From positions 1 to 64,000 of the forward strand of contig JAFTUI010000004.1 of NCBI GenBank assembly GCA_017466345.1: a stretch of DNA of 64,000 bases. The letters are read 5' to 3'. Origin of the DNA: Tidjanibacter sp. GTDB taxonomy: Bacteria; Bacteroidota; Bacteroidia; Bacteroidales; Rikenellaceae. A program made the position numbers and the translations under genes. The notes under the pieces were generated by a model, which saw only the letters and a program-made list of their open reading frames with translations, did no database searches and had not been told where the DNA came from. Of this stretch, positions 1-48,054 are shown piece after piece. Each line of letters starts with the position of its first letter. Within the stretch, counting starts at the first letter, position 1.

Positions 1-205
1 GATAGGTAGATGCCAACCGCCTGCCTACGGCAGTCGTGGCAAGACGGACAGACCTCTCCCCCGCTTCGCGGACCCTCCCCTAACTTAGGGGAGGGATAAA
101 ATACTCGCAGGCGTAGCCTGCACCATAATTTTCAATTCTCAATTCTCAATTCTCAATTCTCCTATAAGCCTTAGGACTATTGACGTTAGACCTTAGACGT
201 TAGAC
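1..205 (-). repeat. Family 1 intercistronic element, copy A (cut by window edge)
   Basis: Read on the minus strand this starts at 205 with the left-end heptamer array (GTCTAAC-type units). It continues through the nonamer CTATAAGCC, a TCAATTC heptamer array at about 132-162, the palindrome GCAGGC..GCCTGC and the hairpin CCCTCCCC..GGGGAGGG. The same blocks occur in copies B, C and F. The right end lies before position 1. Its left end points away from the 3' end of uvrB, as if following uvrB transcription. Confidence 0.8.
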
Positions 206-233
206 CCTAAAACCGCGAGTGGGTTTTGTGAGG

Positions 234-318
234 AGATTTTTGTGCCAAACAAGCGAACAACTCCGCAGTTTGCTCAGCGCAAATGAGGAAGTTGCGATGC
301 GCGGTTTGGTGCAAAAAG
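234..318. repeat. Family 2a conserved-core hairpin downstream of uvrB
   Basis: The outer arms TTTTTGTGCCAAAC (about 237-250) and GTTTGGTGCAAAAA (304-317) are inverted. Inside them CAACT..AGTTG (258-294) brackets a core of CGCAGTTTGCT..GCGCAAATGAGG. The copy at 15549 has the same outer arms but different inner stem bases, and its core pair TTTAC/GTAAA replaces TTTGC/GCAAA here, a compensated change. It lies just after the uvrB stop, so a role in 3' end formation is plausible. That role is inferred. Confidence 0.7.
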
Positions 319-354
319 CACCCACAAGGCACGCTCGCCCACAAGGCACACTCG

Positions 355-2355
355 CTATTTCTTCCCTTGCAACTCGTACATCCTATCTCGCCACAGTGCC
401 GCTTGTGCAAAGTCCAAAGCCTTAGCAGCCTCCTCCATACGGCGGCGGGCATCATTGATGGCACCCTCCCTCTCCTCGGGCGAGTAGACACTCCTCTTGT
501 CTGCTGCCATCTGCGCTCCTCCCACACCCAGCGGATAGGGCTCTGCGCTCTCGGAGGTAACTCCCGCAATGGTGGTGCGGGCATAGCGGCGTATCTGTGT
601 GGGCGTTATGCCGTTAGTCTCGTTATAAGCCATCTGTTTTTCGCGTCTGCGGCGGCTCTCGTTGATGGTCGCCTGCATAGCATCGGTTATGGTGTCGCCA
701 TACATAATAACCCTACCCTCGACATTCCTCGCAGCACGTCCTGCGGTCTGCGTCAGCGCCCTCTCGCTACGCAGGAAGCCCTCCTTATCGGCATCCATAA
801 TAGCCACCAGAGCCACCTCGGGTAGGTCCAAGCCCTCCCTCAGCAAGTTCACGCCAATGAGCACATCGAAAGAACCCGCTTTGAGGTCCTCCAAAATCTG
901 CACCCTATCGAAAGTCTCCACATCGGAGTGGATGTAGCGGTTGCGGATGCCTATGCGGTCGAAGTACTTGGAGAGTTCCTCCGCCATACGCTTCGTAAGG
1001 GTTGTAACGAGCACCCTCTGTCCCTTATGCACAGCCTCCGAAATCTCCTCCAAAAGGTCATCAACCTGATTGTCCGTAGGGCGCACCTCTATCTCGGGGT
1101 CGAGGAGTCCTGTGGGGCGCACAAGTTGCTCTACAACAGCCCCTTCGCTCTTTATGAGTTCGTAGTCGGCAGGGGTGGCACTACAATACAAAACCGTATG
1201 TCCGAAGCTCTCGAACTCGGCAAAAGTGAGTGGGCGGTTGTCGATGGCTGCGGGCAGGCGGAAGCCATACTCCACAAGGTTTTCCTTGCGCGCCCTATCG
1301 CCGCCGAACATTGCCCTCACCTGAGGTATTGTAACGTGGCTCTCATCGACCACCAGCAAAAAATCTTCGGGGAAGTAGTCGAGTAGGCAGAAGGGGCGTT
1401 CGCCCGCCTTTCTACCATCCATATAGCGCGAGTAGTTCTCAATACCCGAGCAGTAGCCGAGTTCCTTTATCATCTCCACATCGTACTCCACCCTCTGTTT
1501 AATGCGTTGAGCCTCAACACTCCTACCAGCCTGCTCGAACTCAGCAATCCTTTCGCCCAAGTCGAGTTGTATTTGGCGGATAGCGTCTTCGGTGCGCTCC
1601 TTGGTCGTAACAAAGAGGTTGGCAGGGAAGATACTCACCTCCTCCACGCTCTCCAATCTTGCGCCCGTAGCGGGGTCTATTCTCCACATAGCCTCCACCT
1701 CATCGCCAAACATCGACACCCTCCAAGCATCACTCTCCGAGTAGGCGGGCATAATGTCTATGGTGTCGCCCTTCACGCGGAACGTGGCAGGCTCCAAATA
1801 TCTCTCGGTGCGGGTATAGAGCGCATCCACAAGGCGGTACAAGAGTCTGCGCTGAGGTATCACATCGCCCACCTTTATGGTAATGCTATTGGCGTGGAAG
1901 TCCGAAGGGTTGCCGATACCATAGAGGCACGACACACTCGACACCACAATGACATCCCGTCTGCCCGAAAGCAGCGAAGCCGTAGTGCGCAGTCGGAGTT
2001 TCTCTATCTCGTCATTGATGGCGAGGTCTTTTTCGATGTAGGTGTCGCTTGCAGGCAGATACGCCTCGGGCTGGTAGTAGTCGTAGTACGACACGAAGTA
2101 CTCCACAGCATTCTCGGGAAAGAACGCCTTGAACTCACTATAAAGCTGTGCTGCAAGAGTCTTATTGTGGCTCAGCACAAGCGTGGGACGGTTCAGACGC
2201 TCCACAACATTCGCCACCGTGAAAGTCTTGCCCGAACCCGTAACACCCAACAACGTATTGTGGGGCTGACCGCCCTCAATAGAGCGCACCAACTCCTCAA
2301 TAGCCTCGGGCTGATCACCCGTGGGCTTGTAATCCGACACCAACTTGAAGTTCAT
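355..2355 (-). CDS. uvrB: UvrABC excision nuclease subunit B
   Basis: Damage-recognition helicase of nucleotide excision repair. It is loaded onto DNA by UvrA and then recruits UvrC. The 666 residues match the usual family length. Visible motifs are Walker A GVTGSGKT near residue 40, the beta-hairpin region YYDYYQPEAYLP near residue 95 that inserts between strands at a lesion, the Walker B-like box VVDESH near residue 338, helicase motifs through RALTQTAGRAARN, and a C-terminal UVR domain (about 625-660, EEREGAINDARRRMEEAAK) that contacts UvrC. The ATG at 2355 lies 36 bp downstream of the terminal hairpin of repeat copy B. No uvrA or uvrC is nearby. Identification is firm. Confidence 0.98.
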   Translation of the reverse strand: MNFKLVSDYKPTGDQPEAIEELVRSIEGGQPHNTLLGVTGSGKTFTVANVVERLNRPTLVLSHNKTLAAQLYSEFKAFFPENAVEYFVSYYDYYQPEAYLPASDTYIEKDLAINDEIEKLRLRTTASLLSGRRDVIVVSSVSCLYGIGNPSDFHANSITIKVGDVIPQRRLLYRLVDALYTRTERYLEPATFRVKGDTIDIMPAYSESDAWRVSMFGDEVEAMWRIDPATGARLESVEEVSIFPANLFVTTKERTEDAIRQIQLDLGERIAEFEQAGRSVEAQRIKQRVEYDVEMIKELGYCSGIENYSRYMDGRKAGERPFCLLDYFPEDFLLVVDESHVTIPQVRAMFGGDRARKENLVEYGFRLPAAIDNRPLTFAEFESFGHTVLYCSATPADYELIKSEGAVVEQLVRPTGLLDPEIEVRPTDNQVDDLLEEISEAVHKGQRVLVTTLTKRMAEELSKYFDRIGIRNRYIHSDVETFDRVQILEDLKAGSFDVLIGVNLLREGLDLPEVALVAIMDADKEGFLRSERALTQTAGRAARNVEGRVIMYGDTITDAMQATINESRRRREKQMAYNETNGITPTQIRRYARTTIAGVTSESAEPYPLGVGGAQMAADKRSVYSPEEREGAINDARRRMEEAAKALDFAQAALWRDRMYELQGKK

Positions 2356-2391
2356 ATTCTTTTTTTCTCTTTTTTCGCGACTTTCTTTTTC

Positions 2392-2975
2392 GCACCTTTT
2401 TGTAAAAAGGTGCTACCAAAAACTTTTCGTGTACCGACCAATTGTGGTACTACCTACCGTTTTGCTTAGGAGTGGCTTCGGAGCCACCTACACAAAAGCG
2501 TCACTCTGACGCCCTTGCGGTGGTGTGACTGCCTTGCGGCAGGTCTGAAATGAGCAAAGCACCAATCTCTTTCAAACAAGTTTGAGAGATGGTGCTTTCC
2601 TCATTTCTGCTCCTTCGGAGCATCCCACACCACCGAAAAAAGACTCCTCTCAAACTCCCCTGTAATCCTTGTTACACCTGCTACCCTTGTTATCCCTGCA
2701 AGAAAAACAAGATAGGTAGATGCCAACCGCCTGCCGCAGGCAGGCGTGGCAAGGCGGACAGACCTCTCCCGCCTTCGGCACCCTCCCTGCTCGGCGGGGA
2801 CGCCGAGCGCAATTTCGACCACCCCTCCTATCCTCCCCTTTCGTAGGGGAGGAACTACTTAGGGGTGGGATAAATTACTCGCAGGCGTAGCCTGCACCAT
2901 AATTTTCAATTCTCAATTCTCAATTTTCAATTCTATCATAAGCCTTAGGACTATTGACGTTAGACGTTAGACCAA
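2392..2975 (-). repeat. Family 1 intercistronic element, copy B
   Basis: On the minus strand it starts directly after tRNA-Arg with GTCTAACGTCTAACGTC (2975 downward). It passes through a TCAATTC heptamer array, the GCAGGC palindrome, CG-rich hairpins, a nonamer array (2660-2702) and the four-way-junction block (about 2519-2635). It ends with a hairpin of GCACC-T5 and A5-GGTGC at 2392-2413, 36 bp before the uvrB start. Compared with copies C and F it has an extra stretch at about 2425-2510 with its own palindrome GTGGCTTCGGAGCCAC. A short open frame here (2589-2846) has no protein-like features. Confidence 0.85.
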
Positions 2976-2979
2976 ATTG

Positions 2980-3051
2980 TAACCCCGAGCGGAATCGAAC
3001 CGCTATCGTAGGAACCGGAATCCTAAATTTTATCCATTAAACTACGGGGTC
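2980..3051 (-). tRNA. tRNA-Arg (anticodon CCG)
   Basis: The minus strand folds as a complete 72-nt cloverleaf. The acceptor arms are GACCCCG and CGGGGTT (first pair a G-U wobble). The anticodon stem is TAGGA/TCCTA with loop TTCCGGT, giving anticodon CCG, which reads CGG. The T-loop is GGTTCGATTCC, followed by discriminator A. CCA is not encoded. A run of T follows on the plus side at 3055-3059. Confidence 0.96.
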
Positions 3052-3117
3052 GGGTTTTTGCATCTATGAGAGAGAAACGCATTTTCCGCTCTCTACATTG
3101 CAAATATCGTGGTTTTA

Positions 3118-3149
3118 TTTGAGAAAACCGCAAAATTTGTGTAGTTTTG
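3118..3149 (+). promoter_or_regulatory. Bacteroidota-type promoter of the S24 regulator
   Basis: TTTG at 3118-3121 and TAGTTTTG at 3142-3149 match the -33/-7 consensus TTTG and TAnnTTTG with a 20-bp spacer. The box covers the upstream TTG at 3147, so that codon cannot start translation. The ATG at 3183 is the start. Confidence 0.75.
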
Positions 3150-3182
3150 CTCTTTCGGCAGACAAAACGCAATCTCCCACTT

Positions 3183-3794
3183 ATGGTTAGACTCACCGCA
3201 AAAGAGAGAATAGAAAAGGTTGTTTGTTGGGCAGGGCTCAGCACGAACGCCTTTGCTATGCAGATTGGGCTCTCTTCGCCGCAGACTCTCTACCAAATAA
3301 AATCCGAAAAACACCAAATATCGCGCCCACTTGCCGAGCGCATCTGCACACGCTATCCCGAAGTGGATTTCGGCTGGCTACTGACGGGCGAGGGAGAGAT
3401 GTTGCGCCCACAAGAGCGTCAAATACCCTACTATGAAATTGATTGTACGGATGTGGCTCTCGGCACACATCTCACACCTTCGGGCTTGGTGGCAATGCCC
3501 CGTTGTGGCGAGTGCGACTTTGTGGCGCCCTACAACTTGCGCGATATGGAGCCCGCCATAAAGCAAGGCAGTATGCTCTTTTGCAAGAGGTGCGAGGTGG
3601 AGGATGTGCGCGTGGGCGACATTGTGGTGGTAAGTTGCACTCGGAAGGCGATGGTGCGCAAAGTGGCAAGGGTTGAAGAGGCGGAATTATTGCTTGGGAT
3701 GGAGTCTTCGGAGCCCCACACAGTGCGCCTCGATGTTACACTCATCAAAGCCATTTATGAGGTTGTGGCGGTTTTAGAATGGAAAAACAGATAA
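3183..3794 (+). CDS. HTH / S24-like (phage-repressor type) transcriptional regulator
   Basis: A 203-residue protein with an N-terminal helix-turn-helix (about residues 3-65, including STNAFAMQIGLSSPQTLYQIKSE with its expected helix spacing). The C-terminal LexA/CI-like beta-domain is about residues 110-200 (APYNLRDMEPAIKQGSMLFCK..., VRVGDIVVV). Such proteins repress genes and may cleave themselves on RecA-ssDNA. The usual Ser is replaced in the DMEPAIKQGSML segment, where the family has DSMxPxIxxGD, so self-cleavage is doubtful. The start at 3183 follows from the promoter at 3118-3149. It lies divergent from tRNA-Arg, and an orphan histidine kinase begins 11 bp after it. It is either a host regulator or a domesticated phage repressor. 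Confidence 0.8.
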   Translation: MVRLTAKERIEKVVCWAGLSTNAFAMQIGLSSPQTLYQIKSEKHQISRPLAERICTRYPEVDFGWLLTGEGEMLRPQERQIPYYEIDCTDVALGTHLTPSGLVAMPRCGECDFVAPYNLRDMEPAIKQGSMLFCKRCEVEDVRVGDIVVVSCTRKAMVRKVARVEEAELLLGMESSEPHTVRLDVTLIKAIYEVVAVLEWKNR

Positions 3795-3805
3795 TTTCTT
3801 AGTAT

Positions 3806-4855
3806 ATGAAAATCAAAACGATAAATGCTGCGGCCTTCATTGTTGGCATAATCACAATCTTCTGCGTGGCGGTAGGTTTGCTGATGGGGCGTTTCTTTGG
3901 CACCGATGGTTGGTGGTGGGGTTTCATCTTCGCCATAGGTAGCGGTGTGATAGTCTTTGTGGGCGACAAGTTTGTGATGAAGCGTTTCTTTTTGGAGCGC
4001 ATCAAGCCCCTCTATCGCATAGTGCTCGGCAGGGACATCAAGACCACCGAACTTGCAGCCGAATTGGAGCAGACCGACCACCCCGAGCGTTCGGTAAGTG
4101 CCGAGCTAAACCGCTGGGCAGACCAGAACCAGAAGGAGATTGCACGCCTAAAAGAGAACGAGAAGTACCGCAAAGAGTTCGTGGGTAATGTGTCGCACGA
4201 AATTAAAACCCCTATTTTCAACATTCAAGGCTACATATCCACACTCCTCGATGGTGGTATGAACGACCCTGTGATGATGCGCCGCTACTTGGAGCGCACC
4301 GAGAAGAGCATAGACCGCCTGATAAACATCACAAACGACTTGGAGGCTATCTCTAAGCTCGAATCGGGCGTTCTGAACCTCAACTACGAGCGTTTCAACA
4401 TTGTGGCTCTGACGCGCGACATTGTGGATACCATAGAGTTTGAGGCTACGAAGAAGAATATCAATGTGGTCGTGGGCTCGTCCTACAATGTACCCTACCC
4501 TCCCGTATGGGTTAAGGCCGACCGCTACTACATCGAGCAAGTGCTCATAAACCTCATCATCAACTCCATACGCTACGGCAACGAGGGTGGCGAGACGTTC
4601 ATTAAGTTCATAGACCTCTTCGACAAGGTGTTGGTGGAGGTGAGGGATAATGGCAGGGGTATTGCTAAGGAGGATATACCGCGCGTCTTCGAGCGTTTCT
4701 ACCGCACCGACAAGGGGCGTTCGCGCGAGCAGGGTGGCACAGGATTGGGACTTTCGATTGTGAAGCACGTCTTGGAGGCGCACGGCGAAACCATCAATCT
4801 GCGTAGCGAATTGGGCAAGGGTAGCACTTTTTCCTTCACATTGAGTAAAAATTAG
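3806..4855 (+). CDS. Membrane sensor histidine kinase (PhoR-like)
   Basis: 349 residues. There are two membrane segments near residues 8-28 and 37-53 with almost no periplasmic loop, then a short linker. The dimerisation/phosphoacceptor box is VSHEIKTP (about residue 130), and the ATPase domain has the N box NLIINSIRYGN, G1 DNGRGI, F box RVFERFYR and G2 GGTGLGLSIVKH. It should autophosphorylate on the His of SHEIK and pass phosphate to a response regulator. No response-regulator gene is beside it, so the partner is encoded elsewhere. It starts 11 bp after the S24 regulator and is probably co-transcribed with it. With so small a sensor region it may read the membrane itself. Confidence 0.92.
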   Translation: MKIKTINAAAFIVGIITIFCVAVGLLMGRFFGTDGWWWGFIFAIGSGVIVFVGDKFVMKRFFLERIKPLYRIVLGRDIKTTELAAELEQTDHPERSVSAELNRWADQNQKEIARLKENEKYRKEFVGNVSHEIKTPIFNIQGYISTLLDGGMNDPVMMRRYLERTEKSIDRLINITNDLEAISKLESGVLNLNYERFNIVALTRDIVDTIEFEATKKNINVVVGSSYNVPYPPVWVKADRYYIEQVLINLIINSIRYGNEGGETFIKFIDLFDKVLVEVRDNGRGIAKEDIPRVFERFYRTDKGRSREQGGTGLGLSIVKHVLEAHGETINLRSELGKGSTFSFTLSKN

Positions 4856-4909
4856 CGGTTTTTTGCTACCTTTACCTGCCACAAATAAGAATTAAAGATT
4901 TTTTGTGAT

Positions 4910-5776
4910 ATGAACCATTTTCTTTCAGTTGTATGGAATGCCAACCCCGTAGCCTTCTCGCTCTTTGGCTTGGAGATTAGGTGGTATGGTATCTTTTGGG
5001 CTTTGGCTTTCATTGCGGGTATCTACTTTTTCACGAACTTTGTGCGCCGCGAGAAGTTGCCCGAAAAACTCGTGGATTCGCTCTTTTGGTATGCCACCAT
5101 TCTCGGCATCCTCGGCGCAAGGCTCGGACACTGCCTCTTCTATGAGCCTGAGGTGTACTTGGCAGACCCGCTGCGTATGCTCAACATCCGCGAGGGTGGT
5201 ATGGCTTCACACGGTGCGGCAATAGGATTTCTCATTGGTCTTATTCTCTTTTCGTGGCGCAACAAAATGCCCTTCTGGTGGGCTGCCGACCGCATAATGA
5301 TACCCGTAGCCATAGGTGGTGCGGGTGTGAGGCTCGGCAACCTTATGAACTCCGAGATTTACGGCAGACCTACCGACCTGCCTTGGGGTTTCATCTTCGA
5401 GCGCAATGGCGAAACGGTGGCTATGCACCCCACACAGATCTACGAGGCACTCTTTTATATTGCGGTCTTTGTGGTTCTTTTGGTGCTCTACTATAAGGGC
5501 GATGCAGGTCGCAAGCACCCCGCGTTGATGTTCGGCGTTGGTCTTATTGGAATCTTCCTCTCGCGCTTCTTCTTGGAGTTCATAAAGAACGACCAGGTGG
5601 CTTTTGAGGCTGATATGACACTCAATATGGGACAGCTGTTGAGTATTCCTTTTGTCATCGCAGGCGTGGTATTTATCGTTATGGGCTTGAAGAGCAAGCC
5701 CCAGCGCATTGCTTGGGCAGAGGAGCCCAAGAAACCTGCCGCCAAAAAAGCAGCACCTCCCAAAGCAAAGAAGTAA
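4910..5776 (+). CDS. lgt: Prolipoprotein diacylglyceryl transferase
   Basis: Inner-membrane enzyme that transfers diacylglycerol from phosphatidylglycerol to the lipobox cysteine of prolipoproteins, the first step of lipoprotein maturation. 288 residues with several hydrophobic helices. The family signature is seen as REGGMASHGAAIG (about residues 93-105), with further conserved GVRLGNLMNSEIYGRPTDLPWG and HPTQIYEAL. The C-terminus has an extra Lys/Ala/Pro-rich tail (about 265-288) that is probably cytosolic. The window encodes many lipoproteins that would be substrates. The start ATG is preceded by a 54-bp gap from the kinase gene. Confidence 0.97.
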   Translation: MNHFLSVVWNANPVAFSLFGLEIRWYGIFWALAFIAGIYFFTNFVRREKLPEKLVDSLFWYATILGILGARLGHCLFYEPEVYLADPLRMLNIREGGMASHGAAIGFLIGLILFSWRNKMPFWWAADRIMIPVAIGGAGVRLGNLMNSEIYGRPTDLPWGFIFERNGETVAMHPTQIYEALFYIAVFVVLLVLYYKGDAGRKHPALMFGVGLIGIFLSRFFLEFIKNDQVAFEADMTLNMGQLLSIPFVIAGVVFIVMGLKSKPQRIAWAEEPKKPAAKKAAPPKAKK

Positions 5777-5798
5777 CACATAATAAGCATTTCACAAT

Positions 5799-15213: not shown

Positions 15214-15449
15214 CGACTTAGTTTTTTTATGTTTGTGAATATAATTAGTCTAAATTCCTACAAATATAGGTGTTTTTTTTGAAAAACATCCTCCATCCCA
15301 CCCAAAAGCAATGATTTTGAGATTGTTTGGGTGTTTTGGGGGATGAATGGAGCAAAAATGCAGCCAGAGTGCAAATTGTGTACTATGAGCACTTTGGGGA
15401 GAGCGGTGGGAGAAATGGGGATGATGAGAGATATGAGAGAGAGGGGGGG

Positions 15450-15515
15450 CATTACTCCCATTACTCCCATTACTCCCATAAGCCTTATAAGCCTTATAAG
15501 CCCTATAAGCCCATA
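15450..15515. repeat. Nonamer tandem arrays
   Basis: Three or four copies of CATTACTCC are followed directly by CTTATAAGC-type nonamers. The second set is the same nonamer found inside family 1 copies D and E. The rest of the 15214-15784 gap holds no gene but carries two family 2 hairpins. Confidence 0.85.
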
Positions 15516-15548
15516 AACACACCACCAAGAGTGCATATCGTGGAGGGA

Positions 15549-15628
15549 TTTTTGTGCCAAATGAAAAAGCGGCTCCGCAGTTTACTGAGCGTAAATGAGG
15601 AAGCCGCTTTTGAAGTTTGGTACGAAAA
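15549..15628. repeat. Family 2a conserved-core hairpin
   Basis: The outer arms TTTTTGTGCCAAA (15549-15561) and TTTGGTACGAAAA (about 15615-15628) surround a stem of AAAAGCGGCT (15565-15574) and AGCCGCTTTT (15602-15611). The core between them is CCGCAGTTTACTGAGCGTAAATGAGG. It has the same plan as 234-318 but different stem bases. Confidence 0.75.
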
Positions 15629-15688: not shown

Positions 15689-15765
15689 GCAAGGCTTGCG
15701 AAAAAAATCCTCCCGCAGTTTACTTGACGTAAATGAGGGAGGATTTTTTGAGTATAACGCAGCAG
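15689..15765. terminator. Family 2b conserved-core hairpin after nrdJ
   Basis: The stem AAATCCTCCC (up to 15714) and GGGAGGATTT (from 15737) has an A run before and a T run after, and encloses the core GCAGTTTACTTGACGTAAATGAG. The flanks GCAAGGCTTGCG (15689-15700) and GAGTATAACGCAGCAG (15750-15765) recur at 32479-32555. It is placed as a terminator for the B12-dependent reductase gene that ends at 15784. Confidence 0.8.
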
Positions 15766-26693: not shown

Positions 26694-27617
26694 ATGGATG
26701 TTCGTGAAAAAATTGACATTCTCAAACGCGAGAAGAGAGCCATAATCCTCGCCCACTATTACACCTCGCCTGAGGTGCAGCAGGTGGCAGATTTTGTGGG
26801 CGACAGCCTTGCGCTGTCCGAAAAGGCGGCAGTTGCAGACGCCGACATCATCCTCTTTGCAGGCGTGAGGTTTATGGCAGAGACCGCCAAGGTGCTCTCG
26901 CCCTCGAAGAAGGTGTTGCTGCCCGTTGTGGAGGCAGGTTGCTCGCTTGCCGACTCGTGTGATGCGGCAGAACTTGCCAGAGTTAAGGCTGAAAACCCCG
27001 ACCACCTCGTGGTGTCGTATGTAAATACCTCGGTGGAGGTAAAGGCGCTGACCGATATATGCTGCACCTCCTCCAATGCTCTGAAAATTGTGGAGTCGCT
27101 GCCCAAGGACCAAAAGATACTCTTTGTGCCCGATAGGAATCTCGGCTCTTATATTAATAGGTGTACGGGAAGGGATATGAAACTCTGGGATGGCGCGTGC
27201 CTGGTCCACGAGGAGTTCTCGGCAGAGAAGATTAGAGCCCTGAAAGCGCTCCACCCCGAAGCGGTGGTGCTGGTGCACCCAGAGTGTAAGGCGGAGGTTG
27301 TGGCGCTGGCAGACTATGCAGGCTCAACAGCGGGCATTCTTGCCTACTGCGCACGCCCCGAAGTGCAGGAGGTTATTGTTGTTACCGAGAGCGGTATCCT
27401 CTACGAAATGGAGAGTCGTTATCCTGACAAAAAGTTCTACCTCGTGGAGCCCGAAAAGGGGTGCGAGAGGTGTGTGTCGTGTAAGGATATGAAACTCGTA
27501 ACACTCGACAATATCTACCAAACCCTGCTCAATGAGAGCCCTGAGGTGGTTATTGACGAGGAAGTGCGTACCGCCGCCGAAGGGTCTATACGCAGGATGC
27601 TGGGGATTATGGTCTAA
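26694..27617 (+). CDS. nadA: Quinolinate synthase
   Basis: 307 residues from the ATG at 26694. An in-frame GTG lies 6 bp upstream. It condenses iminoaspartate with dihydroxyacetone phosphate to quinolinate in NAD synthesis, using a [4Fe-4S] cluster. The three ligand cysteines appear in EAGCSLADSC (about 84), VHPECKAE and GCERCVSCKDMK. AHYYTSPEVQQVADFVGDSLAL is the substrate-binding start. nadB and nadC are not adjacent. The last codons, GTC and the stop TAA, coincide with the first unit of repeat copy C, so the repeat seems to have set the C-terminus. Confidence 0.97.
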   Translation: MDVREKIDILKREKRAIILAHYYTSPEVQQVADFVGDSLALSEKAAVADADIILFAGVRFMAETAKVLSPSKKVLLPVVEAGCSLADSCDAAELARVKAENPDHLVVSYVNTSVEVKALTDICCTSSNALKIVESLPKDQKILFVPDRNLGSYINRCTGRDMKLWDGACLVHEEFSAEKIRALKALHPEAVVLVHPECKAEVVALADYAGSTAGILAYCARPEVQEVIVVTESGILYEMESRYPDKKFYLVEPEKGCERCVSCKDMKLVTLDNIYQTLLNESPEVVIDEEVRTAAEGSIRRMLGIMV

Positions 27618-28062
27618 TGTCCAACGTCCAACGTCCAACGTCAATAGTCCTAAGGCTTATAGGAGAATTGAGAATTGAGAATTGAGAATTGAAAATTGTG
27701 GTGCAGGCTACGCCTGCGAGTATTTTATCCCTCCCCTAAGTTAGGGGAGGGTCCGCGAAGCGGGGGAGAGGTCTGTCCGTCTTGCCACGACTGCCGTAGG
27801 CAGGCGGTTGGCATCTACCTATCTTGTTTTTCTTGCAGGGATAACAAGGGTAGCAGGTGTAACAAGGATTATAGGGGAGTTTGAGAGGAGTCTTTTTTCG
27901 GTGGTGTGGATGCTCCGAAGGAGCAGAAATGAGGAAAACACCATCTCTCAAACTTGTTTGAAAGAGATTGGTGGTTTGCTCATTTCAGACCTGCCGTAAG
28001 GCAGTCACACCACCGCAAAGGCTACACTAAAAGTTTTTGGGCGACTTTTTATAAAAAGTCGC
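27612..28062 (+). repeat. Family 1 intercistronic element, copy C
   Basis: Probably the most complete copy. In order: a heptamer array of GTCYAAY units (27612-27651), GGCTTATAG, a GAATTGA heptamer array (27662-27698), the palindrome GCAGGCTACGCCTGC, the hairpin CCCTCCCC/GGGGAGGG, CCGC-GAA-GCGG, the TGCCA..TTGGCA hairpin with CTGCC-GTA-GGCAG, and a nonamer array (27837-27890). The four-way-junction block (27900-28014), AAAAGTTTTTGG and the hairpin GCGAC-T5/A5-GTCGC at 28041-28062 close it. It fills the gap between nadA and the S46 peptidase and is oriented with both. Confidence 0.9.
27900..28014 (+). other. Predicted four-way junction inside copy C
   Basis: The outer stem is GGTGGTGTG (27900-27908) with CACACCACC (28006-28014). 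Hairpin 1 is TGCTCC-GAA-GGAGCA (27911-27925). The central arm is AAATGAG (27927-27933) with CTCATTT (27979-27985), extended by CACC/GGTG, ATCTCT/AGAGAT and CAAAC/GTTTG. Hairpin 2 is CTGCC-GTAA-GGCAG (27991-28004). Copies B and F keep this sequence. Copy D keeps the shape with changed bases. Confidence 0.8.
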
Positions 28063-28136
28063 AAAGAGGAAAGTCGCAAAGAAGAAAGTCGCGAAGAAAA
28101 AGAAAAACATATTAACCTAAAATAAAAGAGAAAAAG

Positions 28137-30398: not shown

Positions 30399-30671
30399 GT
30401 CTAACGTCTAACGTCAATAGTCCTAAGGCTTATAGGGCTTATATGGCTTATAAGGCATATGGGGCATATATAAGTAGGAGTTTGAGAGGAGTCTTTTTTC
30501 GGGGAGGAGTGAGGCTCTCCGAAGGAGAGTGGCAGGCGAAGAGTCAGCCCACTCAAACTCGTTTGAAAGTGGGCTGGCAGTTCGACTGCTAATCTGCCTG
30601 CAAAGGCAGCCACACCTCACCGCGAGGGTTGCACTAAAAGTTTTTGGTAGCACCTTTTTACAAAAAGGTGC
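30399..30671 (+). repeat. Family 1 intercistronic element, copy D
   Basis: Starts with GTCTAACGTCTAACGTC, then a nonamer array of GGCTTATAN units (30427-30474). It skips the C/G-rich hairpin part of copy C and goes straight to GGAGTTTGAGAGGAGTC. A restyled junction block follows: GTGAGG/CCTCAC, CTCTCC-GAA-GGAGAG, CAGCCCACT/AGTGGGCTG, the added hairpin GCAG-TTCGA-CTGC and CTGCC/GGCAG. It ends in CACTAAAAGTTTTTGG and the hairpin GCACC-T5/A5-GGTGC at 30650-30671. It lies between the S46 gene and glnS, co-oriented with both. Confidence 0.88.
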
Positions 30672-30746
30672 GAAAAAGCGGAGAAAGAAAAGCGCATAAA
30701 ATACCCAAATCTCAACTTTCATCTTTCAACTTTCAACTCAAATCAC

Positions 30747-42071: not shown

Positions 42072-42098
42072 TCGCTACAAGAGAAAACCATACCTTAT

Positions 42099-42650
42099 AT
42101 GTATATAGCACAACAAAAGCGCAAAGAGAATATCGCCGAGTACATCCTCTACCTCTGGCAGTTGGAGGACCTGCTGAGGGCTTTGAAGTTTAGCCCCGAG
42201 GCGATTTACAACACCCTTGTGGAGCCCAACGGCTGTGACGAGCAGGAGAAACAGCAGATTTTTATGTGGTATATGAGCCTTGCGGGGCTTATCAAGGAGG
42301 AGGGCAAGAGCGAACAGGGGCACCTCAGTCACACTCTGCACCTTATTGCCGATATGGAGAACCTCCACAACCAACTCCTCAACCTGCCCGTGGGCGCAAC
42401 CTACCGCACATTGTGGGCTCCCCTGAAAGAGGAACTCTCTCGCCTGAGGATTGTGCTGGCACGCGATGGAGTGGGGGACATTGAACTCTGCTTCCGCGCT
42501 CTCTACGCCACAATGCTCTACCGCATAAAGGGCGACCAGAGCAAGTCGGGTGCCATCGAAGATGTCGTAACCCTCATATCGCCCGTCATTGCCACCCTCG
42601 CAGATATGTACCGCAAGGTGGAGTGTGGCGAGATAGACCTCTTCGGGTAG
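42099..42650 (+). CDS. DUF4924 family protein
   Basis: 183 residues from the ATG at 42099 (YIAQQKRKENIAEYILYLWQLEDLLRALKF). Entirely alpha-helical and soluble, with the family start KRKENIAEYILYLWQLED. I know it only as a Bacteroidota protein of unknown function. No signal peptide or membrane helix. It is monocistronic, with a family 2b hairpin after the stop and then repeat copy E. Confidence 0.85.
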   Translation: MYIAQQKRKENIAEYILYLWQLEDLLRALKFSPEAIYNTLVEPNGCDEQEKQQIFMWYMSLAGLIKEEGKSEQGHLSHTLHLIADMENLHNQLLNLPVGATYRTLWAPLKEELSRLRIVLARDGVGDIELCFRALYATMLYRIKGDQSKSGAIEDVVTLISPVIATLADMYRKVECGEIDLFG

Positions 42651-42678
42651 CGAGCGGCTGATTTCTGTGGGTGTTTTC

Positions 42679-42750
42679 TGCGTTACGCTTGCGCTCGAAA
42701 CCTCATTTACGCCTGAGTAAACTGCGGTTTCTCGCGCTGCGCAAGCCTTG
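42679..42750 (+). terminator. Family 2b conserved-core hairpin after the DUF4924 gene
   Basis: On the minus strand it reads CAAGGCTTGCG, then stem GAAACC, core GCAGTTTACTCAGGCGTAAATGAGG, stem GGTTTC, and CGTAACGCAG. It has the same flanks and core as 15689-15765 and 32479-32555, with another unrelated stem. It lies 28 bp after the stop. A T run is missing, so it may act through structure only. Confidence 0.75.
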
Positions 42751-42833
42751 AAAACCCCTCACATAAATCACCCGTAGGGTTGGGGGTAGTGGCACAAAAT
42801 TTCCTCCACAAAACCCACTCGCTGGAAATTTTG

Positions 42834-43117
42834 GTCTAACGTCTAACGTCAAGAATCCTAAGGCTTATAGGGCTTATAAGGCATATAGGGCTTATAGGAA
42901 TTTAAGGAGTTTAAGGGCTTTAATGTCCTTAATCTCCTTATCCTTCCTAATAACCCTCCCCTAAGTTAGGGGAGGGTCCGCGAAGCGGGGGAGAGGTCTG
43001 TCCGTCTTGCCACGACTGCCGTAGGCAGGCGGTTGGCATCTACCTATCTTGTTTTTCTTGCAGGGATAACAAGGGCTGCACGAAAAGTTTTTGGTTCCGC
43101 TTTTTACAAAAAGCGGA
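42834..43117 (+). repeat. Family 1 intercistronic element, copy E
   Basis: Starts with GTCTAACGTCTAACGTC, then about ten nonamers (GGCTTATAG, GAATTTAAG, CTCCTTATC and so on, to 42950). The CCCTCCCC/GGGGAGGG, CCGC/GCGG and TGCCA/TTGGCA hairpins follow, then TTGCAGGGATAACAAGGG. It jumps directly to CACGAAAAGTTTTTGG and the hairpin TCCGC-T5/A5-GCGGA (43096-43117), and so lacks the junction block. It co-aligns with the DUF4924 gene upstream. The gene after it (ssb) is convergent. Confidence 0.85.
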
Positions 43118-43133
43118 GAAAAGAAACATATTC

Positions 43134-43167
43134 AAAAAAGAACCTCGGAAAACATCCGAGGTTCTTT
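43134..43167 (-). terminator. Intrinsic terminator of ssb
   Basis: The arms AAAGAACCTCGG and CCGAGGTTCTTT have a T run after the stem on the minus strand (A run at 43134-43139). It lies just beyond the ssb stop. Confidence 0.88.
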
Positions 43168-43171
43168 CGTT

Positions 43172-43663
43172 TTAGAATGGCAGGTCATCGAGTGTATCTT
43201 CCATTGCGGGTTGGATGGCGGGTGCTGCCACGGCGGGCTGTGGTGCGGGGGTGTAGGTTTGTGCTGCGCCATAGCTTTGTGCGGGCGAGGCGAGCTGCTG
43301 TCCCTGTGGGGTTGTTGTGGCTGCTGTGCCGCCCTCGCGCTTGCCGAGGAGTTTCATATCGTCAGCCTGAATCTCTGTGGTGTAGCGTTTGTTGCCTGCC
43401 TGGTCGGTCCATTCGCGTGTGCGAAGACGACCTTCGATGTAGATCTGTGAGCCTTTGCGAACATAGCGATCCACCACATCGGCGAGGTTGCGCCAGAGGG
43501 TTATGGTGTGCCACTCGGTGTGCTCGGTAGCCTGCTGTGTTTCGCGGTTGTAGTACCTCTCGCTTGTTGCGAGCCTTACGCGGGCGGTCTTAACGCCGCT
43601 TTCGAGGGTGCGCACTTCGGGGTCGGCACCTACATTTCCTACAAGTATAACTTTATTAATCAT
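43172..43663 (-). CDS. ssb: Single-stranded DNA-binding protein
   Basis: 163 residues. The N-terminal OB fold is about 1-108 (INKVILVGNVGADPEVRTLESGVKTARVRLATSERY, TEWHTITLWRNLADVVDRYVRKGSQIYIEGRLRTREW). A Gly/Gln/Ala-rich linker leads to the acidic C-terminal tip DTLDDLPF, which recruits replication and repair proteins. It coats single-stranded DNA as a tetramer. Located 9 bp downstream of the second punA. Confidence 0.97.
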   Translation of the reverse strand: MINKVILVGNVGADPEVRTLESGVKTARVRLATSERYYNRETQQATEHTEWHTITLWRNLADVVDRYVRKGSQIYIEGRLRTREWTDQAGNKRYTTEIQADDMKLLGKREGGTAATTTPQGQQLASPAQSYGAAQTYTPAPQPAVAAPAIQPAMEDTLDDLPF

Positions 43664-43672
43664 AAGCGTGTA

Positions 43673-44476
43673 TTAGAGTGTTTTGAGTAATTCGGTAAAG
43701 AGTTTTGTCATATTTTTCTCAGCGAGTTTGCCATTTTCCTGCACCTCTTCGTGCGATATGGAGGTGTTGTCCATAGTGTCGGTGATGATTGACACACCAA
43801 AGACGGGAATATCCATATGGCGTGCGGCAATAACCTCGGGGGCGGTGGACATACCCACAGCATCGCCACCTATGAGCTTCACCCACATATACTCCTTGGG
43901 TGTCTCGAAGGTGGGACCCGTCAGGGCAACGTAGCAACCATACTGCAACTTGATGCCCTCGCGCTCGGCAATTTTGGTTGCCCTCTCGATGAGTTCGGGG
44001 TTGTAGGCATCGTTCATTGCGGGGAAGCGGGGGCCCAACTCGTCAATGTTGCGACCAATAAGAGGGTTGGGTATGAGGTTTATGTGGTCGTTGATGACCA
44101 TCACATCGCCCACACGGAACGTGGAGTTCATCGAGCCCGCAGCATTAGACACAAAGAGCGTCTTTATGCCGAGGAACTTCATAACCCTCACAGGGAATAC
44201 CACCTGCTGGGCGGTGTAACCCTCGTAGTAGTGGAACCTACCCTGCATAGCCACAACCTTCTTGCCCCCCAGCACGCCCATAATGAGCCTGCCGCTGTGA
44301 CCTTCTACGGTCGATACGGGGAAACCGGGAATTTCGGCATAGGGTATGGAGTGCTCAATCTCTATCTTCTCCACCAAGCCGCCCAAGCCCGTGCCAAGAA
44401 TAATACCAACCTCGGGGCTGAAACCTGCGGTGCGCTCGGCGATATACTGAGCCGCACCCTTTATAGCGTTAATCAT
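43673..44476 (-). CDS. punA: Purine nucleoside phosphorylase I (paralogue 1)
   Basis: 267 residues. Trimeric-type enzyme that splits purine nucleosides with phosphate to free base and ribose-1-phosphate. Motifs: GIILGTGLGGLVEKIEIE, EGHSGRLIMGVLGGKKVVAMQGRFHYYEGYT (phosphate and ribose binding), NAAGSMNSTFRVGD, GPTFETPKEYMW and MSTAPEVIAARHM. It is a tandem paralogue of the next upstream gene, with most motifs identical. The two Ser/Asn differences in NAAGSMN versus NASGGIN may reflect a change of base preference. That is inference. Confidence 0.94.
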   Translation of the reverse strand: MINAIKGAAQYIAERTAGFSPEVGIILGTGLGGLVEKIEIEHSIPYAEIPGFPVSTVEGHSGRLIMGVLGGKKVVAMQGRFHYYEGYTAQQVVFPVRVMKFLGIKTLFVSNAAGSMNSTFRVGDVMVINDHINLIPNPLIGRNIDELGPRFPAMNDAYNPELIERATKIAEREGIKLQYGCYVALTGPTFETPKEYMWVKLIGGDAVGMSTAPEVIAARHMDIPVFGVSIITDTMDNTSISHEEVQENGKLAEKNMTKLFTELLKTL

Positions 44477-44499
44477 AGTTTTTGTTTGTGGTTAGTTGA

Positions 44500-45303
44500 T
44501 TACATCCTTTCGAGCATACCCATAATCAGGGCGCTCATTCTCTTCTCTGCCTTTGCGCCCTCCTGCTGTACCTCTTCGTGGGTTGACTTCTGACCACTGA
44601 AAGCGGCATTGGTAATAATCGAAATGCCGAATACGGGCAGACCCATATGGCGTGCGGCAATAACCTCGGGTGTTGTGGACATACCCGCAGCATCGCCACC
44701 AATAGCCTTGAAATATCCATACTCCTTGGGGGTCTCGAAGGTAGGACCTGTGGTGCCCACATAGCAACCATATTGGAGTTTGATGCCTTTCTCGGCAGCC
44801 ACCTCTGTGGCAAGTGCGCCAAGTGCCTTACTGTAAGGCTCGCTCATATCGGGGAAGCGTGCGCCCAGCTCGTTGTAGTTCTTGCCTATGAGCACATTGG
44901 GAATGAGGTTTATGTGGTCGGTAATGACCATCAGGTCGCCCACGCGGAACGAGGAGTTGATACCTCCGCTGGCATTCGACACAAAGAGGTTCTCGATGCC
45001 GAGCATCTTCATAACCCTCACAGGGAATACCACTTGCTCGGGTGCGTAGCCCTCGTAGTAGTGGAACCTACCCTGCATAGCCACAACCCTCTTGCCACCC
45101 AGGGTGCCGAAGATAAGCCTTCCTGCGTGACCCTCAACGGTAGAAACGGGGAAGTTGGGAATCTCGTTGTAGGGGAGCGAGTGTGCAATCTCGATGTGGT
45201 TTACCAAGCCTCCCAAGCCCGTACCGAGGATGATACCCACCTCGGGGGTGAAGCCGACCTTCTGCTGGATAAATTCTGCTGTCTGTTTAATCGTTGTTAT
45301 CAT
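44500..45303 (-). CDS. punA: Purine nucleoside phosphorylase I (paralogue 2)
   Basis: 267 residues with the same motif set as the neighbour: GIILGTGLGGLVNHIEIAH, EGHAGRLIFGTLGGKRVVAMQGRFHYYEGYA, NASGGINSSFRVGD, GPTFETPKEYGYF and MSTTPEVIAARHM. Its ATG overlaps the lpxK stop (ATGA), so it is translationally coupled to lpxK. A 23-bp gap leads to paralogue 1. Two full-length copies side by side suggest specialisation for different purines. Confidence 0.94.
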   Translation of the reverse strand: MITTIKQTAEFIQQKVGFTPEVGIILGTGLGGLVNHIEIAHSLPYNEIPNFPVSTVEGHAGRLIFGTLGGKRVVAMQGRFHYYEGYAPEQVVFPVRVMKMLGIENLFVSNASGGINSSFRVGDLMVITDHINLIPNVLIGKNYNELGARFPDMSEPYSKALGALATEVAAEKGIKLQYGCYVGTTGPTFETPKEYGYFKAIGGDAAGMSTTPEVIAARHMGLPVFGISIITNAAFSGQKSTHEEVQQEGAKAEKRMSALIMGMLERM

Positions 45304-46346
45304 AGTTTTTTGTTTTTAAGTTCCTTTTTGAGCCTCTCGATGAAGAGGTGCGAGTCGCCATCGCGGAAGTTGAGCTCTATGGGTTGCACAAAGAGCCTCT
45401 TTTGGAGCGATTCGGGGATGTGTTTGCGCGAGGTAAGCTTCACACCATCCTTTTCAGTGGTCACAACCACAACATCCTCGCCATACTTCTCCACCAACTC
45501 AGCAACGCGCCTCACCTCTTTGACTTTATAGATGTGGTGGTCGCTGAACGCCAACTTCTCAACCACTTCATAGCGATTGGCAAGCGAGTCGAAGAACCTC
45601 TCAGGGTGGGCAATACCCGCCATAGCCACAACTTTGCTGCCAGAGGGAATCTTGGCAGGTGCTACGTCCGAGAAGATGGGACGAGGCTCACACTGCTTTG
45701 TATCCGTAAAGAAGATGCTCTGATAGGGCGATGGTTTGAGCTCCTTTTGGGCGATGTTTCGCTCTATGGGCGACATTGTCTTTGGGGTTTTGGTTATGAG
45801 CAAGATGTCCGCACGATAGAGTTGCGAAGGGGTGTCGCGCAGAGTTCCTGCGGGCAACATCCTGTTTTTGTAGGGCGGCAGGGAGTAGTCCGAGAGCAAA
45901 ATACTCGTCTTGGGAGTGAGTGCACGATGTTGGAAGCCATCATCCATAAGGATGAGGTTTACCTCAGGGTGCTCTGCCATAATGCGTCTAACGCCCTCAA
46001 CCCTCTTCTCACACACCACGACTACCGCATTGGGAAATTTGCGCTTAATCTGCTTAGGCTCATCGCCCACCCTGAGGAACGAGTCGCCAACCTCCACCTC
46101 GATATATCCCTTTGTGCGGCGGCGATAGCCCCTCGACAACACAGCAATGCGGTATTCGCCCAATAGCCTACTGAGCAGAAACTCCACCGTAGGAGTTTTG
46201 CCCGTACCCCCCACAGCGATGTTGCCCACGCAGACTATCGGAATGTCGAAGTGCTCACTTCGCAGTATCTTCATATCGTAGAGCCAGTTGCGCACACCAA
46301 CCCCCGCACCATAAAGACCTGCTGCTATGCTCTTTAATACTCCCAT
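45300..46346 (-). CDS. lpxK: Tetraacyldisaccharide 4'-kinase
   Basis: 348 residues from the ATG at 46346 (GVLKSIAAGLYGAGVGVRNWLYDM). The longer frame to 46514 lies inside the PH-domain gene and is rejected. It phosphorylates the 4' position of the lipid A disaccharide at the inner membrane. The P-loop is IVCVGNIAVGGTGKTPTVEFL near residue 50. LSRGYRRRTKGY and DDGFQHRAL are family motifs, and KDGVKL is near the end. It is coupled to the punA genes. The bond between lipid A and purine salvage genes is unexplained. Confidence 0.95.
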   Translation of the reverse strand: MGVLKSIAAGLYGAGVGVRNWLYDMKILRSEHFDIPIVCVGNIAVGGTGKTPTVEFLLSRLLGEYRIAVLSRGYRRRTKGYIEVEVGDSFLRVGDEPKQIKRKFPNAVVVVCEKRVEGVRRIMAEHPEVNLILMDDGFQHRALTPKTSILLSDYSLPPYKNRMLPAGTLRDTPSQLYRADILLITKTPKTMSPIERNIAQKELKPSPYQSIFFTDTKQCEPRPIFSDVAPAKIPSGSKVVAMAGIAHPERFFDSLANRYEVVEKLAFSDHHIYKVKEVRRVAELVEKYGEDVVVVTTEKDGVKLTSRKHIPESLQKRLFVQPIELNFRDGDSHLFIERLKKELKNKKL

Positions 46347-46402
46347 AACGCTTTTTATATCACTCAAACAATCTGTTTTTACCCTTTCTTTCGCCTCCTG
46401 CA

Positions 46403-46921
46403 CTAAGCCTCCTTGGGGTTGCGAGCCTTGGCGCTGAGTATCATCACTCTCAACATTTCGGGCGCCCCACAGCTGACCACATAGCGTTTTTTTGTGGTGT
46501 GTATGGTCACACACCCTTTGCGCCGCGTGGCATAAACTCTATACATACGCCACCCTCTAACATCCAAGTAGCGACCGTAGTAGCCCCAAAAGCCATAGAT
46601 GCCAACCAAAGGGAACTTACCCTTCATCGCACCCGTACTCACAATCTCCACATCAACAATGCTCGAAAGAGGTATGTAGGTTGTCTCCACAAGGCACCTA
46701 AGCTCCACCATCTCCTCGCCGACAATAATCCTCCTCGGCACCGACAGCAGGCATAGAGCCACCAATGCCACCAACATCAGCGTTACCCACGCTGCAAGGT
46801 AGTAGGCACCGTCCGCCAATATCCACAAGGCGCCACACACAAGCCCCAACAGCAACACGGTTATAGCGGAAATCCACCATACCCTGCCATCAAAACCCCC
46901 ATATCTAAACTTTACATTCAA
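46403..46921 (-). CDS. PH-domain membrane protein
   Basis: 172 residues. The start is a TTG at 46921 that overlaps the ispD stop (TTGA), so translation is coupled to ispD. Two membrane helices (about 15-33 and 38-60) are followed by a bacterial PH-like domain (about 65-165, PRRIIVGEEMVELRCLVETTYIPLSSIVDVEIV, CVTIHTTKKRYVVSCGAPEMLRVMIL). Such domains bind proteins or lipids at the membrane. Function is unknown. A GTA after the TTG gives no better start. Confidence 0.8.
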   Translation of the reverse strand: MNVKFRYGGFDGRVWWISAITVLLLGLVCGALWILADGAYYLAAWVTLMLVALVALCLLSVPRRIIVGEEMVELRCLVETTYIPLSSIVDVEIVSTGAMKGKFPLVGIYGFWGYYGRYLDVRGWRMYRVYATRRKGCVTIHTTKKRYVVSCGAPEMLRVMILSAKARNPKEA

Positions 46922-47610
46922 TGTATCTCTCTTGTTCCTTCTGTCTGCAAAGCTTTTGCGATAACCAAATCCTCAGGAGTGGTAATTTTAATGTTGCTCC
47001 TCTCGCCCTCGTAGTAGTGCATCTCCTCGCCCATAGCCTCCACAACCGTGGCATCATCCGTAAAACGCTCCTCTGCATCTCGTTGGTATGCCCTCCGAAG
47101 TAGCGAGGCGGAGAATATCTGTGGAGTCTGCACCGCCCTCAGTAGGCTGCGGTCCACAATCCTCAGCACCCCATCTTCCACAATACGGAACGAATCCACA
47201 GCTCCCACCGTAGGCACCGCCGAGCCATTCTCTATGGCGCACTCCAAGCCCCTGGCAATCATCGCCTCCGACACCAAAGGTCGTACCCCATCGTGTATGG
47301 CAACAATATCACACCCCTCGCCCAGAGCCTGCAAACCGTTCTGCACAGAGTGAAACCTTGTCGCACCACCCGCGCAAACACTATGTGTGCCCCACAAGTT
47401 GCACTCCTCAGCCAGACCTCGCCACAGTTCCATCTGGTCCTTTGGCAACACCACAACGATGTGGTCGGCATAGGGAATAAATCGGCGCACCGTAACAGCC
47501 AAAATAGGCTCCCCGCCAAGGCGCAAAAACTGCTTGGGAACATCGGCACCCATACGACTACCACTGCCCCCGGCAACAATCACAACGCCTATGTTTTTGT
47601 TTTTATACAT
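46918..47610 (-). CDS. ispD: 2-C-methyl-D-erythritol 4-phosphate cytidylyltransferase
   Basis: 230 residues from the ATG at 47610 (YKNKNIGVVIVAGGSG). A frame running upstream to 47784 goes through repeat copy F and is rejected. Third step of the non-mevalonate isoprenoid pathway, making CDP-methylerythritol from MEP and CTP. Motifs: VAGGSGSRMGADVPKQFLRLGGEPIL, IHDGVRPLVS and SNIKITTPEDLVIAKAL. The ATG is only 11 bp after the terminal hairpin of copy F, so this hairpin is in or next to its 5' leader. Confidence 0.96.
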   Translation of the reverse strand: MYKNKNIGVVIVAGGSGSRMGADVPKQFLRLGGEPILAVTVRRFIPYADHIVVVLPKDQMELWRGLAEECNLWGTHSVCAGGATRFHSVQNGLQALGEGCDIVAIHDGVRPLVSEAMIARGLECAIENGSAVPTVGAVDSFRIVEDGVLRIVDRSLLRAVQTPQIFSASLLRRAYQRDAEERFTDDATVVEAMGEEMHYYEGERSNIKITTPEDLVIAKALQTEGTREIH

Positions 47611-47621
47611 CTTCTTTTTTC

Positions 47622-48054
47622 TCCGCTTTTTGTAAAAAGCGGAACCAAAAACTTTTAGTGCAGCCCTTGCGGTGGTGTGACTGCCTTGCGGCAGGGCTGA
47701 AATGAGCAAACCACCAATCTCTTTCAAACAAGTTTGAGAGATGGTGCTTTCCTCATTTCTGCTCCTTCGGAGCATCCACACCACCCAAAAAAGACTCCTC
47801 TCAAAAACTCCCCTGCAATCCCTGTTACCCCTGCTACCCCTGTCACTCCTGTCACTCCTCCAAAAAAGGCAGACCGCTGAATGCTGATAGCTAAAAACAG
47901 ACCTCTCCCCCGCTGCGCGGACCCTCCCCTAACTTAGGGGAGGGATAAATTACTCGCAGGCGTAGCCTGCACCACAATTTTCAATTCTCAATTTTCAATT
48001 TTCAATTCTCCTATAAGACTTAGGACTATTGACGTTAGACCTTAGACGTTAGAC
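47622..48054 (-). repeat. Family 1 intercistronic element, copy F
   Basis: On the minus strand it starts at 48054 with GTCTAACGTCTAAGGTC-type heptamers. It continues with CTTATAGG, GAATTGA heptamers (about 47975-48013), GCAGGC/GCCTGC, CCCTCCCC/GGGGAGGG, a diverged middle, a nonamer array (47815-47860), the junction block (about 47668-47785) and AAAAGTTTTTGG. It ends with the hairpin TCCGC-T5/A5-GCGGA at 47622-47643. It sits between the M23 peptidase gene and ispD, co-oriented with both. Confidence 0.87.

Follow-up and report, generated by a model that had tools for sequence, protein, structure and literature searches.

The DNA analysed here (the window) is a 64-kb stretch of a Tidjanibacter sp. 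draft genome (G000; 1.82 Mb in 30 contigs; other G numbers denote relatives). An earlier note on this DNA had described six copies of a modular repeat, here named A to F, and all six are present. Copy B (2391..2975, minus strand) lies between a tRNA-Arg gene upstream (2979-3051, minus) and uvrB downstream (355-2355, minus) and is built of the modules L, M, N, O, K, J, H and R. Copy C (27612..28063, plus; L, M, N, O, K and R) occupies the gap between nadA and a dpp7-like S46 gene, whose family match falls below curated cut-offs, and copy D (30399..30672, plus; L, K and R) the gap between the latter gene and glnS. Copy E (42834..43118, plus; L, M, N, O and R) is located in the convergent region before ssb, which is on the minus strand. 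Copy F (47621..48054, minus; L, M, K and R) separates ispD from an upstream murein-endopeptidase-like gene (48064-49455, minus), named from matches below curated cut-offs. Copy A (1..205, minus) carries L and M; it has no R, as the contig (C19) starts at window base 1 and cuts the copy at its left.

The left end, L, contains GTCTAAC heptamers, and a motif scan placed its core at 161..184 (A, minus), 2935..2958 (B, minus, three mismatches), 27640..27663 (C, plus), 30413..30436 (D, plus), 42848..42871 (E, plus) and 48010..48033 (F, minus). With up to three mismatches allowed, these are six window matches against 0.00 expected from 100 shuffles. The right end, R, is a linker, AAAAGTTTTTGG, followed by a hairpin, and the R core with its hairpin is found in five of the six copies: B (2391..2427, minus; stem GCACC/GGTGC), C (28029..28063, plus; GCGAC/GTCGC), D (30636..30672, plus; GCACC/GGTGC), E (43083..43118, plus; TCCGC/GCGGA) and F (47621..47656, minus; TCCGC/GCGGA). 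The R hairpin lies 35 bp before the start of uvrB, 74 before that of the dpp7-like S46 gene, 110 before that of glnS and 11 before that of ispD, and in copy E 54 bp separate the hairpin from the 3' end of the convergent ssb. The earlier note was therefore right about a constant right end in copies B to F, about its lying 11 to 110 bp before the next start and about copy E being followed by a convergent gene. The K module, with its multi-arm fold, was delimited with a covariance model in copies B (2512..2639, minus; 133.3 bits), C (27895..28021, plus; 132.6 bits), D (30496..30628, plus; 138.9 bits) and F (47664..47792, minus; 132.2 bits), all four being training copies of that model. Copy B additionally holds the J hairpin, GGCGTCAGAGTGACGC (2498..2513, minus), and the H motif (2444..2457, minus). 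Copies A to F are best read as one family of Tidjanibacter mosaic interspersed repeats.

In the whole G000 draft the L motif occurs 98 times and the exact R core 53 times, with zero control matches for both. Contig C28, which carries one R copy, is 100% identical to part of contig C25 over the 7,290 bp compared and is thus redundant, leaving 52 independent R copies. Since several contigs end within or near these repeats, the true number of R and L copies is probably higher than the count. L and R share an intergenic region in 24 of the 98 L cases, and L, searched by its module pattern (regex), is present in 22 of the 50 R-bearing regions, so that the constant left end claimed earlier is not a genome-wide feature.

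To describe the inner parts, eight modules (L, M, N, O, K, J, H and R) and two short leader motifs were chosen by eye and mapped in the 50 R-bearing regions, of which 49 were usable, a gene call masking the motifs in one. The modules were defined after the copies had been seen, their order was not imposed, and the redundant contig was counted once too often; on these terms, none of 121 pairs of different modules breaks the sequence L-M-N-O-K-J-H-R and none of 112 modules lies 3' of the last R. Two modules, one M and one J, are opposed to the direction of R. The gain and loss of middle blocks that had been noticed in the window takes the form of optional modules kept in a single order.

Orientation relative to genes was determined with our own gene finder, trained on G000 and checked in the window, where 8 of 10 ORFs had family matches, together with tRNA genes predicted by ARAGORN. 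Among the 53 R copies of G000, 38 are co-directional with the upstream gene, 12 lie in convergent regions, none is reversed or in a divergent region, and three have no assignable upstream gene. Counted per intergenic region (n = 50), 36 are co-directional (35 after dropping the redundant contig C28), 11 convergent, 0 reversed, 0 divergent and 3 unassignable. Likewise, the 32 R copies of G005, de-duplicated by contig coordinates, comprise 28 co-directional, 2 convergent, 0 reversed, 0 divergent and 2 unassignable ones, or, per region (n = 28), 25, 1, 0, 0 and 2, respectively. Gene maps without tRNAs gave a few R exceptions in G000, and none was left after tRNA genes had been added. L elements that share a region with R (n = 24) behave in the same way, 19 running with the gene direction, 0 against it and 5 lying in convergent regions. 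In contrast, those without R (n = 74) run with the gene in 14 cases and against it in 18, with 27 convergent, 4 divergent and 11 incomplete (Fisher p about 3e-5 for R-linked versus R-free elements, one redundant copy included). As L without R shows no preference while R is strict, the orientation rule is a property of the R-bearing elements and not of the left end; the earlier statement that the left end always follows a gene in that gene's direction stands for R-bearing elements (38:0) and falls for L alone (14:18). Replication direction was also considered as the cause and judged unlikely: R points -, +, +, +, - over 45 kb of the window, following the genes.

The pattern in G000 would also arise if the element were a selfish repeat that couples its insertion to transcription, entering only behind a transcribed gene, in sense, via the transcript or the transcription bubble, with no function for the cell needed. 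Such entry, which we regard as unlikely, would account for the lack of any exception among the 50 determinable G000 copies, and L elements sitting in both directions are in keeping with it. No mobilising enzyme was found to go with it, the one searched for (Y1 transposase, PF01797) being absent from 23 of the 24 genomes of the genus, and no target duplication could be defined. A third possibility, to our mind a somewhat unlikely one, is that insertion is blind and that reversed copies are lost through harm to the gene they face, by antisense, block or termination. It agrees with the divergent regions, which hold none of the 50 copies though 66 of the 469 neighbour pairs in the fetched regions (overlapping stretches counted twice) are divergent, and with the pneumococcal BOX repeat, described as over-represented between convergent genes in Streptococcus pneumoniae (PMC3049150).

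The sense rule is not universal for the R core, since two relatives depart from it. In G012, which has 37 R cores, 6 are co-directional, 5 reversed, 13 convergent and 13 without an assignable upstream gene, and in 24 of 30 loci a gene on the opposite strand has its 3' end 9-82 bp away from the R end. Most G012 R copies are a different class; the two hairpin-led copies recognised there are both in sense. For G021, 29 of 35 planned stretches were covered, with most of the 65 listed positions (77 R cores in all), and a rough window-based de-duplication gave 58 R copies in 36 regions, 11 of which hold both orientations as inverted pairs, while single-orientation regions are mixed (5 co-directional, 2 reversed). 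Among 46 named Tidjanibacter loci, mapped without tRNAs and from partly overlapping genomes, 20 are co-directional and 5 reversed. Outside the genus no orientation bias was seen (Acetobacterales, one with and five against; Clostridia, three and three; other Rikenellaceae, five and six), in a weak cross-taxon table for which the gene finder had few training sequences; it is weakest for Acetobacteraceae. The tabulation of orientation proposed in the earlier note yields a one-sided distribution in G000 (38:0) and G005 (28:0) and one that is close to even or mixed in G012 (6:5) and G021. Both departing genomes violate what transcription-coupled insertion predicts. G012 also speaks against the loss of reversed copies, as it tolerates reversed R (the 5 copies in co-directional regions) and has R close behind the 3' ends of opposite-strand genes in most loci.

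Signals for termination and initiation bear on the same alternatives. Between 27500 and 31000, five intrinsic terminators were called against 3.4 in shuffles, one of them inside copy C (27702-27718, plus); the R hairpin was called in neither copy C nor copy D, whichever strand was scanned, and this argues against reversed copies being lost through termination by R. A strict promoter scan (TTTG-N18-22-TANNTTTG) gave no match in 51 sense element bodies and none downstream in sense; it gave one downstream in reverse and misses the promoter-like site of glnS. That site, TATCTTTG, was noticed by eye downstream of the element, and glnS seems to keep its own promoter, so that not every copy need sit inside an operon. 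A reversed copy there need not kill, which favours orientation by insertion. Sense transcription, coupled insertion and loss of reversed copies give the same pattern; with strict R in G000 and G005 against tolerant L and G012, each of the three keeps some probability.

A conserved multi-arm fold of K is supported by the alignment of its copies. The module is present in 25 G000 copies (24 distinct, one being on the redundant contig), each with R at most 700 bp downstream on the same strand. Its consensus comprises the closing stem and two arms, of which one is short and the other long; a third arm comes in with the folds of the subfamilies. Pairing is retained in 97.4% of 840 cells against a shuffled mean of 82.3 and drops to 40.5-45.6% when the partner is slid; two-sided changes affect 18 of 35 pairs (shuffled mean 13.5) and 136 cells (52.6 in shuffles), and the 30 further pair types are not above shuffles (29.9). 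Many of the two-sided changes are differences between two or three subfamilies, so they are not independent events. Matched stems in K could also come from correction of one arm by the other at the DNA level. A covariance model, which the earlier note had suggested for the six copies, was built for K; it has matches in 10 other genomes of the genus (E <=0.001), among them G006, G014, G018, G019 and G023. For the 14 K-like matches checked, all in the other five genomes, R follows within 700 bp in 7: 3 of 4 in G013, 2 of 5 in G012, 2 of 3 in G008, 0 of 1 in G017 and 0 of 1 in G005.

Support for the sense strand as the folded RNA is weak. Over all K copies, with pairs predicted from both strands, G-U exceeds A-C (17 versus 5 cells; 10 versus 4 columns), and the sense strand has the more stable fold in 22 of 24 copies. 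Within the two K subfamilies, G-U to A-C counts are 2:1 and 6:3 for shared pairs and, for the union of pairs, 2:10 (subfamily a) and 23:7; the R stems of G000 have two of each. Tip and linker of R are set by the search pattern, leaving the stem alone as a test. At its first four pairs, Watson-Crick matches make up 188 of 200 cells in G000, which has six stem types, against 37 of 200 in the shifted control; outside the genus, with 17 stem types, they make up 194 of 196, against 51 of 196.

R cores are found in 16 of the 24 genomes of the genus and in two other genomes of the family (61 searched), at 0 to 77 copies. None was detected in 394 other genomes drawn from the phylum, none of them of the same family, or in viral contigs. 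In a wider scan, at least 109 stretches match the R core pattern; the 80 listed show that it also occurs sporadically in Acetobacteraceae, in Anaerotignum and Negativibacillus, and in single MAGs from other phyla. In most of the listed Acetobacteraceae copies, two hairpins are, by eye, flanked by AAAAGTTTTTGG and its near-complement, which makes a palindrome.

At orthologous sites the element is present in some species and absent from others. No R was found upstream of uvrB in any of 22 relatives (one locus comprising 263 bp), and 11 of the 22 also have tRNA-Arg upstream of uvrB (by eye, over 260 bp). With relatives that keep the tRNA-Arg-uvrB arrangement and have no R, copy B seems to have been added in the lineage of the window. 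R is likewise absent upstream of glnS in 22 of 22 relatives (three with less than 900 bp available). The nadA-dpp7 gap, on the other hand, holds R-like elements in the same orientation in 7 of the 12 other species that have both genes, in numbers from one to three; some were identified by eye, their core being different, and stems and flanks differ too. In G013 and G018 another gene follows. In the other 5 species the gap has no element, and 48-149 bp remain. This pattern points to gain or loss at some sites and to an old or recurrent presence at others.

The same observations bear on a purely DNA-level account, in which the stems result from palindrome correction by template switching, the order from recombinational copying of old mosaics and the orientation from a few ancestral copies. 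Tandem 3' arms, the inverted pairs of G021 and the Acetobacteraceae palindromes fit hairpin-driven copying; that many double changes separate a few subfamilies also favours this account. Descent, however, leaves unfixed the direction relative to dozens of unrelated neighbour genes, and the relatives without the element at uvrB and glnS do not fit either; we hold this account to be highly improbable.

Our preferred reading, to which we give a probability of roughly 0.45, is that R-bearing elements are mosaic interspersed repeats that are read in sense, act in cis on the message and have spread as a unit. A full element has the order L-M-N-O-K-J-H-R with each module optional, and its R-bearing form would be transcribed in sense behind the upstream gene, as part of that gene's 3'-untranslated or intercistronic RNA. 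The sense RNA is predicted to fold into the multi-arm K module, a linker AAAARUUUUUGG and, at the end, a hairpin with a fixed tip, CUUUUURYAAAAAG, on a stem of free sequence. Such a folded block would most likely, in cis, separate the fates of the upstream and downstream messages through decay or processing; candidate actions are a decay shield, a processing site or the splitting of two messages. The element, finally, most likely spread as one unit. We infer transcription, cis function and spreading; what the data show are the copies, their module order, the fold, the orientation and the absence from some orthologous sites. The proposal in the earlier note that the element is transcribed and works as RNA gains from the orientation in G000 (38:0) and G005 (28:0) and from the fold of K, and loses from the left end alone, from G012 and G021 and from the weak strand signal. 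Our confidence was lowered because the G-U and A-C counts within subfamilies are weak. A bolder version, which we think improbable, would make R-bearing elements mobile RNA elements that insert only behind transcribed genes, in sense, via the nascent transcript. The recognition end of that route would then be the R core, which Rikenellaceae share with Acetobacteraceae, with several Clostridia and with single MAGs of other phyla.

Interspersed repeats of bacteria are commonly regarded as selfish DNA that is loosely oriented. In the present family, one end module tracks transcription, with no exception seen in two species, whereas a second module, in one and the same genome, fails to do so, and the contrast between R and L isolates the part of the repeat that carries the orientation rule. 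About fifty natural insertions, together with element-free sites in sister species, offer a test set for the effect of a structured intercistronic repeat on operons, and the same set could tell orientation by insertion from orientation by selection.

We file the R-bearing family as a variant of structured interspersed repeats, with BOX, ERIC, MIRU and CIR compared by description rather than by sequence. Searches of the literature on oriented or intercistronic repeats and on repeats of Bacteroidales or Rikenellaceae found no paper naming this family, and a search with the R-core string found no related paper, judged by title. Among Rfam families, the window gives only a cobalamin riboswitch and a tRNA, neither of them in the element, copy C reaching at best 25.9 bits against a gathering threshold of 55.8. 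REP/RAYT membership was rejected, as the genomes lacking PF01797 include G000, G005, G012 and G021, whereas 5 of 14 control genomes gave a match. Of the traits of MITEs, inverted R pairs occur in G021 and Acetobacteraceae, and the R form of G000 has unlike left and right ends; relatives have R-free sites, but no target-site duplication is definable there.

BrickBuilt of Porphyromonas gingivalis, also in the Bacteroidales, is described as always intergenic, with long stem-loops and with leader and tail units (PMC4596501). It differs in its 23-nt tandem repeat and its IS5-like ends such as GAGACCTTTGCA (PMC4596501), and membership was rejected on 0 window matches to this end with up to one mismatch. 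Arrays of the TAACTGA heptamer, in Beggiatoaceae and some Bacteroidetes, are reported to be intergenic and mostly forward upstream of start codons (PMC4679880); here the heptamers alone (GTCTAAC in L) are comparable, and L alone is without direction. ERIC of enterobacteria is structured and co-transcribed, and its orientation is described as crucial for message stability (PMC2229807). At 127 bp and with short terminal inverted repeats (PMC2229807), it is set apart from the Tidjanibacter repeat by description. CIR of Caulobacter and Brucella is an RNA repeat whose two arms are connected by a linker and which has an exposed GANTC (PMC2229807), and the likeness, again by description, lies in the two arms plus linker in RNA. 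The earlier note had called consistent orientation unusual for a mobile repeat; MIRU and ERIC, published with start-codon insertion or with orientation mattering (PMC12548453, PMC2229807), call for a qualification of this statement. We now turn to the two closest families.

MIRU elements are co-oriented with their flanking genes. Here the counts relative to the downstream gene are 38 co-directional and 0 reversed copies, and 12 of 53 lie in convergent regions. MIRU of mycobacteria is described as a mobile repeat that inserts at start codons, its ORF being coupled to the gene there (PMC12548453). MIRU-like translational coupling is not supported for the Tidjanibacter repeat, a coupled ORF being found in 12 of 38 copies against a shuffled mean of 9.0 and maximum of 16. 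BOX of S. pneumoniae is modular with optional inner modules, is predicted to fold as RNA and is co-transcribed in the tested cases, and the effect of boxB depends on orientation (PMC3049150). It has three module types where the Tidjanibacter repeat has eight, and strict co-orientation with the upstream gene, found for R in two species, does not figure in the account of BOX drawn on here (PMC3049150). The BOX-like trait of optional modules in one order and orientation is seen in G000 (0 of 121 pairs out of order and two modules reversed, the modules having been set after inspection). Overall, BOX is the closest known family in layout and MIRU the closest in placement.

Contigs C11, C12, C14, C17, C25, C28, C29, and C30 of the draft genome containing the window (G000) end in a copy of the mosaic intercistronic repeat or no more than a few hundred bases away from one, and the same holds at window position 1, where contig C19 begins. 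Because so many contig ends fall in or near these repeats, the assembly was probably broken by them, and copies are probably missing from the count, which would accordingly be too low. The draft also holds a redundant contig: the stretches C25:147778-155067 (L143) and C28:6481-13770 (L147), which run in opposite orientations, show 100% identity across 7,290 bp.

Other repeats are present in the window. A second intergenic family, built around CTCATTTACG...GTAAACTGCGG, occurs at 212-291, 15524-15613, and 15713-15751, and was also found to the left of the left-end module L in several of the printed copies of the mosaic repeat. Arrays of a 9-bp unit resembling those that follow module L, here without the right-end (R) core, are located at 15447-15516 and 51626-51686. 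Repeats of 9 bp are likewise found at 62141-62324, inside the open reading frame 61985-63340, where, read by eye, they appear to encode a collagen-like Gly-X-Y stretch. The window further carries a cobalamin riboswitch (60937-61180; 64 bits) and two related tandem genes of the same length (43673-44476 and 44500-45303), with ∼78% identity over two ungapped stretches.

In another species of the genus (G021; fetched stretches L446-L471 and L483-L485), R cores often occur as tandem copies and as inverted pairs, many of which are spaced by ∼70-100 bp. In Komagataeibacter and Novacetimonas, the R core, judged by eye, takes the form of a two-hairpin near-palindrome (stretches L168, L187, L195, L214, L220, and other Acetobacteraceae loci); in Anaerotignum and Negativibacillus, it is one-sided.
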